Assembly: GCF_031312535.1 (NCBI RefSeq)
Contig: NZ_CP133594.1
Coordinates: 2,461,934 to 2,525,933 of the forward strand
Direction: 5' to 3'
Source: Methanolobus mangrovi
Lineage (GTDB): Archaea; Halobacteriota; Methanosarcinia; Methanosarcinales; Methanosarcinaceae
DNA length: 64,000 bases
Shown here one piece after another: positions 30,592-34,750 of this stretch. Within the stretch, counting starts at the first letter, position 1, and each line of letters begins with the position of its first letter. Made by a program: the position numbers and the translations under genes. The notes below the pieces were generated by a model. That model saw nothing but the letters and a program-made list of their open reading frames with translations. It was not told the DNA's origin and did not search any database.

Positions 30592-30604
30592 CTATTCAGT
30601 TAAG
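30587..30604. terminator. bidirectional terminator holding both stop codons
   Basis: CTTAACT (30587-30593)/AGTTAAG (30598-30604) with the loop ATTC. The permease stop (TAA, 30589-30591) and the tfuA stop (30592-30594) are adjacent inside the stem, so the hairpin serves two convergent genes with no intergenic base. Confidence 0.7.
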
Positions 30605-31266
30605 ATCTGTTTTATTTTTTCAAGAACAAGGAGTGCATCTTCTCTTTTTATGTTACGCTCGTTCTCTATGCAGAATTTAAGGAGCTCATTTGCTTTATCC
30701 TCAGGAATTATTCCTTCCCTTGAAGCTCCCTTTGTAATTCCAAAATAACTTCTTTCCGTGTAGTGTGTTCTTTTGGCAAGCTCAGTTATGCGTCTGAATT
30801 CATCATCCTTGATTATATCTAACTTGAGTGCTGCCTTGAAAGTTTCCCGTATGTTTACCATGGGATTTGACACTGGTTCGAATGTATCAGGATTTGTAGC
30901 AACTGCCACTTCATCATCATCCTCGATGACTCCGTCCCTGTACCACTCATATATCTGTCCCACTCCTGTCATTCCGTGGACGTCTAGTTCAGAAGCCCGA
31001 AGAGCTCCCATACTGCAACCGCCAACGACGGTTATTCCTTCTTTTATTGCCCTGATTATTTCCTTGTGAGCCACTGCTGCCCGGCTAAAAAAGATACCGT
31101 CAATAATGCCTATTGTCGCATAACCCTGAAGAATGGCTTTTTCAATATCTCCTCTGGATATGGGTGGCCAGTATGTAGCATCAAGGACCTTTGCAGCATC
31201 TTCGTGGCTTATGCTTGTGCCTGCAAATATGAGGGCTTTAGCAAGGGGCTTAGTATTTTCGCTCAT
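30592..31266 (-). CDS. tfuA: TfuA-like protein, McrA glycine thioamidation partner
   Basis: TfuA-core family proteins work with YcaO to convert a glycine in the alpha subunit of methyl-coenzyme M reductase into thioglycine; TfuA is thought to deliver sulfide. The core is clear: ALIFAGTSISHEDA near the start, PPISRGDIEKA, IGIIDGIFF, and VVGGCSMGALRASELDVHGM near residue 80. The ATG at 31266 overlaps the ycaO stop by four bases (ATGA), so the two are coupled; a longer frame begins 7 codons up. An N-terminal extension of about seven residues is therefore not needed. Confidence 0.93.
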   Translation of the reverse strand: MSENTKPLAKALIFAGTSISHEDAAKVLDATYWPPISRGDIEKAILQGYATIGIIDGIFFSRAAVAHKEIIRAIKEGITVVGGCSMGALRASELDVHGMTGVGQIYEWYRDGVIEDDDEVAVATNPDTFEPVSNPMVNIRETFKAALKLDIIKDDEFRRITELAKRTHYTERSYFGITKGASREGIIPEDKANELLKFCIENERNIKREDALLVLEKIKQILTE

Positions 31267-32540
31267 TTTCGGCGTCCAGTTCTCCATGGCCTGTCCTCTG
31301 GTGCCATTTTCCTCTTTTTTCCTGACTTTGCTCTTCTTCCTACGCGCTCTCTGTCAAGTGTGTACATCTCAAAGGAGGGAATAATCACTCTGACAACCGG
31401 AACAGGTATGTTTTCTCTTGACATGTCTACAACTACGGCGCAGTCTGCAATATTCCTCAATTGTTCCAGCACTACATCGATACTTTCGGAAGGTGTGTTT
31501 TTTGACAGGTCTTTCAGATCGCGCATGGATGTCTGTTCATCGTCCTCATACCAGTACTTGTTCATGCGTTTTATTCTGTCATATCCGATTTCCCTGACAA
31601 ACTTTTCACGTTCAGTGTCCTCTCGGGCACCGTGTATCTGCACAACTCTTGACTGTGCGGCTTCTGTCAGTGCTCTCTTTACTGCGATTTCCGGTTTGAG
31701 GTGTGCACCTGCACCCATTACCAGAAGTGCAGCATCTCTGAGTCTTATGTCATCAGTGACTGCAACTACGGTTGTTATTTCTGTATCATGGGGTACTGCC
31801 CACAATTTCACCTCAACTTCATTGTCGGTGAACTTGCGTAGAAGCTCGTAATTTTCACCGTCACTTTCTGTGAGGATTATCTCTTTTCCCGGGGTACGGT
31901 TGAATTCTGCTATGCTTAAAGCATCCCTTTCAATGACTTCCAGCAGGCCGTGGAATATGGCCTCTTCTACAGTGTTTCCTGCTGCAAGTCCGTTAGTGTT
32001 ACTTCTGAATAACTTCAAAGCTCTGCCGGGTGCATCATATGGATGATATACTGCATTTGCAGGAACAAATATTTCCTCGTTCTTTAAAAGGTCCCATCCG
32101 CTTATCCATTCTACAAAAGCCTGAGGGCTGTAATCTTCAGCTATGAGTAGAAGTGTCGGGTCAACTGTGCGGTGATTTTCCCGCATGGCTATATAATTGT
32201 CTATGATGTGCTGAGCTTTGATATCTTCTGCCACATCGTTGTTCAGTCCGTTCCTTTCTGCCAGGCATCGTTCAAAACTCTCCATAATTGCGGATATCCT
32301 TGCCTGATTCTCAGTGTTGCCCTTTCCTGAATAGACTGATATTGCACCTTCTGCCGCGCTGGGTCTGATGGTTGAAATAACGGGTATTCCTACTCTGTCA
32401 AGGTCAGTGATGCTGGCGACTCTGGTAACCCCTATTTGTTTGGAATTATCGTTTACCTTCTCTAAAGTACTTTTTTCATCAAAGACTCTCTGTGTCCCCT
32501 CGATGTATGTGAGTGTTCTGTCGATGTTTAGCTCTGGCAT
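31263..32540 (-). CDS. ycaO: YcaO-family thioamidation enzyme acting on methyl-coenzyme M reductase
   Basis: A 425-residue YcaO enzyme. YcaO uses ATP to phosphorylate a backbone amide and enables thioamide formation; in Methanosarcina the ycaO-tfuA pair is needed for McrA thioglycine. Family features are the ATP-binding elements near residues 85-100 ([15 protein letters not shown]), the E-rich VIERDALSI segment near 200 and the C-terminal region [15 protein letters not shown]. The C-terminus ends in basic residues rather than the Pro-rich PxPxP tail of bacteriocin YcaOs. It is divergent from the P460-like gene and is the first gene of a two-gene operon. Confidence 0.94.
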
Positions 32541-32648: not shown

Positions 32649-33188
32649 ATGAAAATTAGAACAATTATCCTTTTGATGGTGATTTGTATCGTTGGTATTT
32701 CGGGTTGTACTGATTCAGCTACTGAGGGTGATGTTGTGTCACAGGATGCTGAAGAAACGGCAAATGGTGGTGTAGATATGCAAGTATCTCAACCGGATGC
32801 GTCATCCCTATTCTCCGCTTTTACTGAAAATGATGCTTACAAAGGATGGTCCATATGGCCTGGCAAGGAAGCAATGATGGAGGGCAATGGTGTACATGGT
32901 GATTATGTTTCCATATATGTCTCTGACAATGCTTTGTCTTCAGCAGAAATAGGCGGGGCAACAATGCCATATGAAACAATGGTTGTCAAAGAAGGTTTCA
33001 ACGCTGATAAAGAGCTTACCGGGATCTATCTCATGTATAAATCGGAAGGCTTCAACCCTGAGAACAATGATTGGTTCTGGGCAGCTTATTCTTCCGAGGG
33101 TGATGTTAAAACAGAAGGTAGGGCAAGCGGTTGTATCGGTTGTCATGAAGGAAAGGAAGATGTTGACTATATTTTTATGAATGCTTGA
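32649..33188 (+). CDS. cytochrome P460-like lipoprotein with a c-type heme motif
   Basis: A 179-residue exported lipoprotein; the signal ends in lipobox GISGC (Cys 20). The body matches the cytochrome P460 domain by eye: YKGWSIWPGKEAM, NGVHGDYVSIYVSDNA, TMVVKEGF, then MYKSEGFNPENNDWFWAAY. It ends with CIGCHEG, a CxxCH heme c motif (Cys 162 and 165, His 166). P460 proteins in bacteria oxidise hydroxylamine or nitric oxide; in a methanogen the role is unknown and could be electron transfer or NO/hydroxylamine defence. Methanosarcinaceae make multiheme cytochrome c, so heme attachment is plausible. I chose ATG 32649 for the clean signal peptide. Confidence 0.75.
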   Translation: MKIRTIILLMVICIVGISGCTDSATEGDVVSQDAEETANGGVDMQVSQPDASSLFSAFTENDAYKGWSIWPGKEAMMEGNGVHGDYVSIYVSDNALSSAEIGGATMPYETMVVKEGFNADKELTGIYLMYKSEGFNPENNDWFWAAYSSEGDVKTEGRASGCIGCHEGKEDVDYIFMNA

Positions 33189-33282: not shown

Positions 33283-33334
33283 AATGTGTATAAAAATTAC
33301 AATATGCATAAAATCATAATATGTATAAAATTAC
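33283..33334 (+). repeat. three tandem 17-18-base direct repeats upstream of the 47-residue peptide gene
   Basis: AATGTGTATAAAAATTAC (33283-33300), AATATGCATAAAATCAT (33301-33317) and AATATGTATAAAATTAC (33318-33334) follow each other without gaps; the last two agree at 14 of 17 positions. Each contains a TATA-like core, so they may be repeated promoter elements or an operator for a co-operative regulator. They lie about 50 bases upstream of the peptide ATG. Confidence 0.6.
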
Positions 33335-33384
33335 AATGATTTGTCAGGCGATGAAATAGATTACAGAGAGACAGGAGGCAAAAT

Positions 33385-33528
33385 ATGAGAAACCTAAATA
33401 GAAAAAGAAACGTAGTCGATATCTTCAAAAGCTGCCATACGGTGGTTGGCGGAGTATCAGCAGATAAACTCAACGCCGAGGAAATGGAGCTTTATCGCTT
33501 CATGGTAGGCGGAGTGCAGGCAAAGTAG
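33385..33528 (+). CDS. 47-residue peptide with two VGGV motifs, unknown function
   Basis: An overlooked short gene. It has a textbook ribosome binding site (CAGGAGG at 33373-33379, five bases before the ATG), the tandem-repeat promoter region upstream and a terminator hairpin overlapping its stop, so it appears to be a separate transcript. The N-terminus is basic (MRNLNRKRN), then VVDIFKSCHTVVGGVSA, an acidic helix (NAEEMELYRF) and MVGGVQAK. A 13-base near-repeat TGGTTGGCGGAGT/TGGTAGGCGGAGT encodes the two VGGV motifs 20 residues apart. There is one Cys and one His. It is not recognised; a peptide precursor, regulator or metal/sulfur-binding partner are possibilities. It lies between the P460-like gene and a cysteine desulfurase. 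Confidence 0.6.
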   Translation: MRNLNRKRNVVDIFKSCHTVVGGVSADKLNAEEMELYRFMVGGVQAK

Positions 33529-33545
33529 CCTGCAAAACTATTTTT
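33515..33545 (+). terminator. terminator overlapping the peptide stop codon
   Basis: TGCAGGC (33515-33521)/GCCTGCA (33528-33534) with a 6-base loop that contains most of the TAG stop, followed by CTATTTTTAT. It separates the peptide transcript from the cysteine desulfurase gene. Confidence 0.7.
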
Positions 33546-33559
33546 ATATTCTCTACATA

Positions 33560-34750
33560 ATGGTTCTTATGTATGATGTTCTCACAGTCAGGGAAGACTT
33601 TCCCGTATTAAAAGATGTGATATATCTGGATAATGCAGCTACGACGCAAACGCCTGTTCAGGCTGTATCTGCAATGCTGGATTATTTCTATAAGTATGCC
33701 GCAAACCATGGACGTGGGGCTCACAGGCTTGCAAGAGAAACAACAAACCACTATGAGGATGCTCGGGAAATGGTTGCATCTTTTTTCAATATGGATGTTG
33801 CAAATACTATTTTTACAAAGAATGCAACAGAAAGCATCAACGTCGTGTCCAGGGGTTTTCCGTGGAAAAAAGGTGACCATGTCATAGTCACACTTGTCGA
33901 ACATCATTCCAATTTGCTTCCATGGATGCGCTTAAAGGAGTTGGGTGTTGAACTCACAGTTGTAAAACCCGATCAGGGGGGTGTTGTGGACCCTGAAGAT
34001 ATCAGGTCAGCTATCAATGATAGGACTCGGCTTATAGCAGTAAATCATGTTTCCAACGTATTCGGGTCCATACAGGACATAAGCAAGATCATTGGCATCG
34101 CACGACAGGAAGGCGTGAAAATACTGGTGGATGGTTCCCAGTCTGCAGGAAACATGCCAATAGATATCAGATCAATTGATCCTGATTTTTTTGTATGCCC
34201 TGGGCATAAAGGTTTACTTGGTCCTCAGGGAACAGGCGTATTATACATAAAAGAACCTGATATGATCGAACCTATATTCCTTGGTGGTGGAATGGTCAGT
34301 TCTGTAACTCCTGATAGTTATAAAATGGAACCAAGTCCTGCAAGATTTGAAGCCGGTACTCCTAATATTCCTGGTGTTATAGGTCTTGGTCGTGCTGTGC
34401 AATACGTGAAAGAGCTTGGTGTCGGGTCTATCGGAAAGCATGAAATATCCCTGGCAAAGGAAACGGCTCTACGTCTTGGCGAACTGGATGCTGTTGAAGT
34501 ATATGGTCCCAAGAACAGGGCTGGTGTTGTATCTTTTAATGTGGTGGGTATGAACTCTCATGACGTGGCTATGATACTTGACCAGACGCATAATATATGT
34601 GTAAGGAGCGGTTATCATTGTGCAATGCCAGGTATTGATCATCTGGGTGTCAAAGGTACTGTAAGGGCTTCATTTGCTCTATACAATACTGTTGAAGAGG
34701 TTGAAACTCTGGTTAAAACAGTTTCCGATATCACTTCACTTCTTTCCTGA
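33560..34750 (+). CDS. SufS-like cysteine desulfurase
   Basis: A 396-residue PLP enzyme that takes sulfur from cysteine for Fe-S clusters and other thio-cofactors. The NAATTQTP motif lies near residue 26. The PLP Lys is in CPGHKGLLGPQG near residue 222 and the catalytic Cys in RSGYHCAMPG near residue 356, the SufS/CsdA (group II) pattern. Either ATG 33560 or 33569 may start it; no good ribosome binding site is present and a TATA-like TTTTATATT is only 20-25 bases upstream, so the transcript may be leaderless. Its location near ycaO-tfuA suggests a local sulfur supply, but this is inference. Confidence 0.92.
   Translation: MVLMYDVLTVREDFPVLKDVIYLDNAATTQTPVQAVSAMLDYFYKYAANHGRGAHRLARETTNHYEDAREMVASFFNMDVANTIFTKNATESINVVSRGFPWKKGDHVIVTLVEHHSNLLPWMRLKELGVELTVVKPDQGGVVDPEDIRSAINDRTRLIAVNHVSNVFGSIQDISKIIGIARQEGVKILVDGSQSAGNMPIDIRSIDPDFFVCPGHKGLLGPQGTGVLYIKEPDMIEPIFLGGGMVSSVTPDSYKMEPSPARFEAGTPNIPGVIGLGRAVQYVKELGVGSIGKHEISLAKETALRLGELDAVEVYGPKNRAGVVSFNVVGMNSHDVAMILDQTHNICVRSGYHCAMPGIDHLGVKGTVRASFALYNTVEEVETLVKTVSDITSLLS

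Follow-up and report, generated by a model that had tools for sequence, protein, structure and literature searches.

A conserved 47-codon gene upstream of a SufS-like cysteine desulfurase gene in the Methanosarcinaceae

The open reading frame at 33385-33528 of the window (the whole 64,000-nucleotide stretch of Methanolobus mangrovi DNA analysed here, from a genome of one 2.62-Mb contig) is, judged by the conservation of its sequence, a genuine, conserved small protein-coding gene specific to Methanosarcinaceae. It lies directly upstream of a gene for a SufS-like cysteine desulfurase. Our best guess, a tentative one to which we give somewhat less than an even chance, is that the product may be a non-catalytic accessory or regulator that acts in trans on the supply of cysteine-derived sulfur. 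The gene adds a near-universal small-protein family, of which we found no description, to a lineage in which small proteins adjusting methanogenesis have recently been reported. The features discussed below are as follows (window positions; C1 is the contig of the same genome).

30592..31287, minus strand: tfuA, McrA-glycine thioamidation type (NF033432, 298.9 bits; model cut-off 235.2)
31263..32540, minus strand: ycaO, McrA-glycine thioamidation type, divergent (TIGR03266, 526.2 bits; model cut-off 365)
32649-33188: P460-like haem lipoprotein gene
33293..33337, plus strand: 17-nt AT-rich repeat (2.6 copies) ahead of the small gene
33368..33378, plus strand: leader box GAGACAGGAGG, including the ribosome binding site
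33385..33528, plus strand: small-protein gene (type A), 47 codons, stop included, identified by family homologues and dN/dS
33515..33534, plus strand: hairpin across the stop codon
33529..33547, plus strand: CCTGCAAAACTATTTTTAT box, which probably doubles as T-tract of the small gene and BRE/TATA of a sufS without leader
33569..34750, plus strand: SufS-like cysteine desulfurase, start MYDV (PF00266; TIGR01979)
C1:412810-412959, minus strand: paralogue B, similar at the C-terminus
C1:412602-413043 (locus L045, 5603-6044): paralogue B with a CxxC mini-protein

Conservation and architecture of the small protein

The frame translates to MRNLNRKRNVVDIFKSCHTVVGGVSADKLNAEEMELYRFMVGGVQAK, and its ATG is preceded by CAGGAGG, the ribosome binding site named in the initial annotation. 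When Methanosarcinaceae genomes were searched with a profile of close homologues, a homologue was found in 93 of 101, and in 82 of the 83 of high quality; the misses fell in the genera designated g9 and g10. The search of 393 genomes of the archaeal phylum gave one borderline match outside the family, and an order-wide search gave one more; apart from these two, the gene was absent outside Methanosarcinaceae in the phylum as sampled. Most of the named relatives bearing the closest peptides were Methanolobus. For 25 distinct Methanolobus sequences, pairwise dN/dS had a median of 0.24 (249 usable pairs), with the tightest constraint in the C-terminal part of the protein. The codons of the gene are under purifying selection, and the initial view that this is a real gene, to be checked by its conservation across the family, is borne out on both counts. 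Searches of Pfam, NCBIfam, PDB sequences and, with Foldseek, PDB structures returned no usable match to the peptide, a plasmid collection gave no match, an Rfam scan placed no family in the region, and the peptide motif did not occur in the published text searched. The main text of a Ribo-seq and peptidomics study of M. mazei (PMC11456600) mentions neither the desulfurase, SufS nor YcaO.

Across the family the protein is ~38-55 residues long, and its N-terminus differs in sequence and length between genera. The part constant across genera is G-x(5)-L-x-x-(E/D)-(E/D)-x-(D/E)-L-Y-R-F-M-(V/I)-G-G-x-Q-(A/G)-K-stop, with RFM(V/I)GGxQ(A/G)K at a constant distance from the stop. The pattern [DE]LYRFM[VI]G was itself used to gather one homologue set, and in that set those letters are invariant partly through selection; sets gathered without the pattern had the same core with small variations. 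AlphaFold2 predicted a helix at residues 31-42, a loose N-terminus and little strand (mean pLDDT 65). The conserved part is a C-terminal helix ending in RFM(V/I)GGxQ(A/G)K-stop. It includes a conserved Tyr and Phe and no conserved Cys: many homologues have Tyr, Phe or Ser in place of the Cys, and the significance earlier attached to a Cys-His pair finds no support. An internal duplication with two VGGV motifs had also been proposed. TGGT(T/A)GGCGGAGT does occur twice in the window, with none expected by chance, but only 9 of 72 loci have VGGV at the first site and the two DNA segments differ at a median of 7 of 13 positions, and we rejected the duplication.

Most genera apart from Methanosarcina also have a diverged second copy (B), similar to the first at its C-terminus. 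At 22 of 28 B loci a very small protein carrying two CxxC pairs (a mini zinc ribbon) is encoded downstream. B lies near CODH/ACS genes in Methanolobus and elsewhere in other genera. Since B keeps its C-terminus without sufS, this part most likely works as protein, and the comparison argues for a product that would act in trans.

Neighbouring genes and flanking DNA

The small gene was found directly upstream of a SufS-like desulfurase gene in 77 distinct loci from at least 12 genera. Loci were retained on condition that such a gene lay no more than 300 nt away, so this count shows the regularity of the spacing, which from the small-gene stop to sufS was 40-46 nt in 73 of the 77. The synteny with the desulfurase that the initial annotation proposed to check is supported. 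Every type A stretch fetched in the neighbourhood comparison had sufS adjacent, and the pair persisted while the remaining neighbours varied between genera. The best NCBIfam model for the window's desulfurase was TIGR01979 (sufS), at 407.6 bits, below its cut-off of 475.1. The g7 genomes fetched (g7 is apparently Methanosarcina) carry this SufS-like enzyme; parts of two papers on Fe-S biogenesis in M. acetivorans list IscS1-3 and name no SufS for that organism. The genome encodes one more SufS-like desulfurase (45% identical), ~0.8 kb away from a ThiS-like gene (L189; C1:1440797-1442971).

A divergent ycaO-tfuA pair stands beside the small gene in nine genera (g1, g3, g4, g5, g6, g8, g12, g13 and g14) and is not its neighbour in g2, g7 and g11. 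SufS, YcaO and TfuA are all present without the peptide in genera g9 and g10 and in family f2; small frames upstream of sufS in genomes lacking the peptide were inspected by eye, and none resembled it. Two papers state that archaeal TfuA obtains its sulfur from thiocarboxylated ThiS homologues, and a desulfurase beside ycaO-tfuA would fit with this. The P460-like gene lies between ycaO and the small gene, and locus L070 has a relative of it at the same place.

Upstream of the small gene, the leader box is exact in 56 of 77 loci, and its conservation reaches past the ribosome binding site; as a regulon marker it was rejected, the only other of the two copies in the genome being inside a long reading frame. 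The tandem repeats noted initially are present, but by eye they are common only to the nearest relative (L002) and were not seen in the other species shown. At the stop codon lies the stem-loop TGCAGGC-AAAGTA-GCCTGCA followed by AAAACTATTTTTAT (1 found against 0.3 expected), and a stem containing 4 or more G-C pairs spans the stop in 64 of 77 loci compared to 0.8% of shuffled controls. This hairpin upholds one half of the terminator proposed earlier. Its T-rich tail, however, lies at a fixed distance from the sufS start, the CTGCAAAA box preceding the sufS ATG by 39-41 nt in 68 of 77 loci, so that the tail probably serves as sufS promoter too. Loci L074 and L077 have an insertion that parts a second copy of the box from the stop, and the usual distance to sufS is kept. 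AT-rich boxes also precede SufS genes in family f2, which lacks the peptide. The box is probably the BRE/TATA of a leaderless sufS, in which case the sufS promoter would overlap the 3' end of the small gene.

A putative role in sulfur supply and its alternatives

In the reading we prefer, the peptide would act in trans by means of its C-terminal helix and tail; its target would be SufS or a partner that takes sulfur from SufS, and one likely consumer of that sulfur would be McrA thioglycine formation by YcaO-TfuA. The adjacency to sufS in 77 distinct loci from at least 12 genera, the divergent ycaO-tfuA in nine genera and the purifying selection on the protein all speak for a role in sulfur supply, and the paralogue's C-terminus, kept away from sufS, is consistent with it. 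Against it count g9, g10 and f2, which keep SufS, YcaO and TfuA without the peptide, and g2, g7 and g11, in which YcaO-TfuA are not neighbours. Because the first three have all three proteins and lack the peptide, it can only be an accessory, and it would adjust the sulfur pathway rather than be essential to it. No Cys is conserved, and the peptide is therefore unlikely to be a persulfide carrier holding sulfur on cysteine. An AlphaFold2 model of the peptide tethered to SufS gave no docking (peptide pLDDT 26-39), a weak test made with the monomer in which the N-terminal part of SufS was also poor.

The adjacency to sufS may be kept only through the overlap of the gene end with the sufS promoter. 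The small protein would then be independent, regulate something else and stand beside sufS for that reason alone, an explanation we regard as possible though somewhat unlikely. The box at fixed distance that overlaps the small-gene end, the paralogue located away from sufS, and the small proteins known to act on methanogenesis in Methanosarcinaceae (MtrR and MtrI, on the Mtr complex of M. mazei) all agree with it; the persistence of the small gene-sufS pair while other neighbours change between genera, and the sulfur theme of the neighbourhood, do not. The flanking DNA raises another explanation, in which the frame is a cis-acting leader whose translation controls the hairpin at its end and thereby read-through into sufS, or protects the sufS promoter against transcription coming from upstream. 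The arrangement expected of such a leader or attenuator, a hairpin at the end of a frame upstream of sufS, is found here; the conserved hairpin covers the stop and the codons just before it, conservation of the leader box extends past the ribosome binding site, and the distance between the C-terminal motif and the stop does not vary. However, sufS looks leaderless with a promoter of its own, selection acts on the protein, and the paralogue keeps the C-terminus without sufS, and we consider a leader function doubtful.

Two further explanations turn on the ycaO-tfuA genes. That the peptide is a precursor modified by the neighbouring YcaO-TfuA, as had been suggested initially, draws on their adjacency in nine genera, but we now hold this to be extremely improbable. 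A RiPP precursor calls for a peptide-modifying YcaO, and the YcaO here scores as a McrA-specific equivalog; both it and TfuA exceed the cut-offs for McrA-glycine thioamidation, and enzymes of this kind also occur in genomes without the peptide. The peptide is equally conserved where ycaO-tfuA are distant, and its conserved part reaches the very last residue, leaving no variable core. The other explanation arises from a local resemblance: residues 7-42 of the peptide align with the TfuA stretch VVGGCSMGALRASELD and its flanks. The peptide would then be a mimic, or a fragment, of the elbow at the TfuA active site, and would either assist one of TfuA's partners (YcaO or ThiS) or compete for it. 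Alignment with hhalign gave a probability of 60-81%, a score reached by none of 200 column permutations, although these values do not come from a single planned test, TfuA having been singled out from recurrent weak matches. In test sets of 325 and 560 proteins, TfuA proteins also came first among those outside the peptide family, and tfuA is a neighbour gene. Set against this, scans of 40 family members with Pfam and NCBIfam (E up to 10) matched no TfuA model, the likeness is weak outside Methanolobus, and the predicted helix, starting at residue 31, appears to begin later than the TfuA alignment implies. We think the elbow explanation improbable, and so, a shade more strongly, its extended form, in which a TfuA-elbow mimic with a ThiS-like VGG tail would adjust how sulfur passes from cysteine via SufS to the McrA thioglycine. 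If true, this mimic would be a dedicated small regulator of the McrA thioglycine modification.

Comparison with known systems

The McrA thioglycine locus (ycaO-tfuA; TIGR03266, NF033432) neighbours the small gene in nine genera; the two have a sulfur theme in common, and the peptide weakly resembles part of TfuA. The peptide differs in being no enzyme of the pathway and in being missing from genera that keep both enzymes. A SufS-like cysteine desulfurase tied to this locus offers a lead on the sulfur source in vivo, and since Methanosarcina is genetically tractable, the points about the family and the sulfur source are directly testable.

MtrR and MtrI of M. mazei, which act by binding a larger complex, the Mtr complex, resemble the peptide in being small (49 and 68 residues), restricted in lineage (to Methanosarcina or Methanosarcinales) and overlooked by annotation (PMC13370731, PMC12774963). 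The peptide was rejected as either of them on their published features. MtrR, with 49 residues, reportedly lacks aromatic residues and is confined to Methanosarcina, whereas the peptide has a conserved Tyr and Phe, occurs family-wide and lies beside sufS; MtrI has an N-terminal four-cysteine zinc ribbon, and the peptide has no conserved Cys. A ubiquitin-like sulfur carrier was also considered, as the ThiS/MoaD carriers likewise have a GG motif near the C-terminus. In the peptide, however, GG is followed by four residues (VQAK), and the chain is not long enough for a beta-grasp fold; with 47 residues, no Pfam ThiS match and one predicted helix with little strand, it was rejected as such a carrier. 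The genome encodes separate ThiS-like proteins that end in GG.
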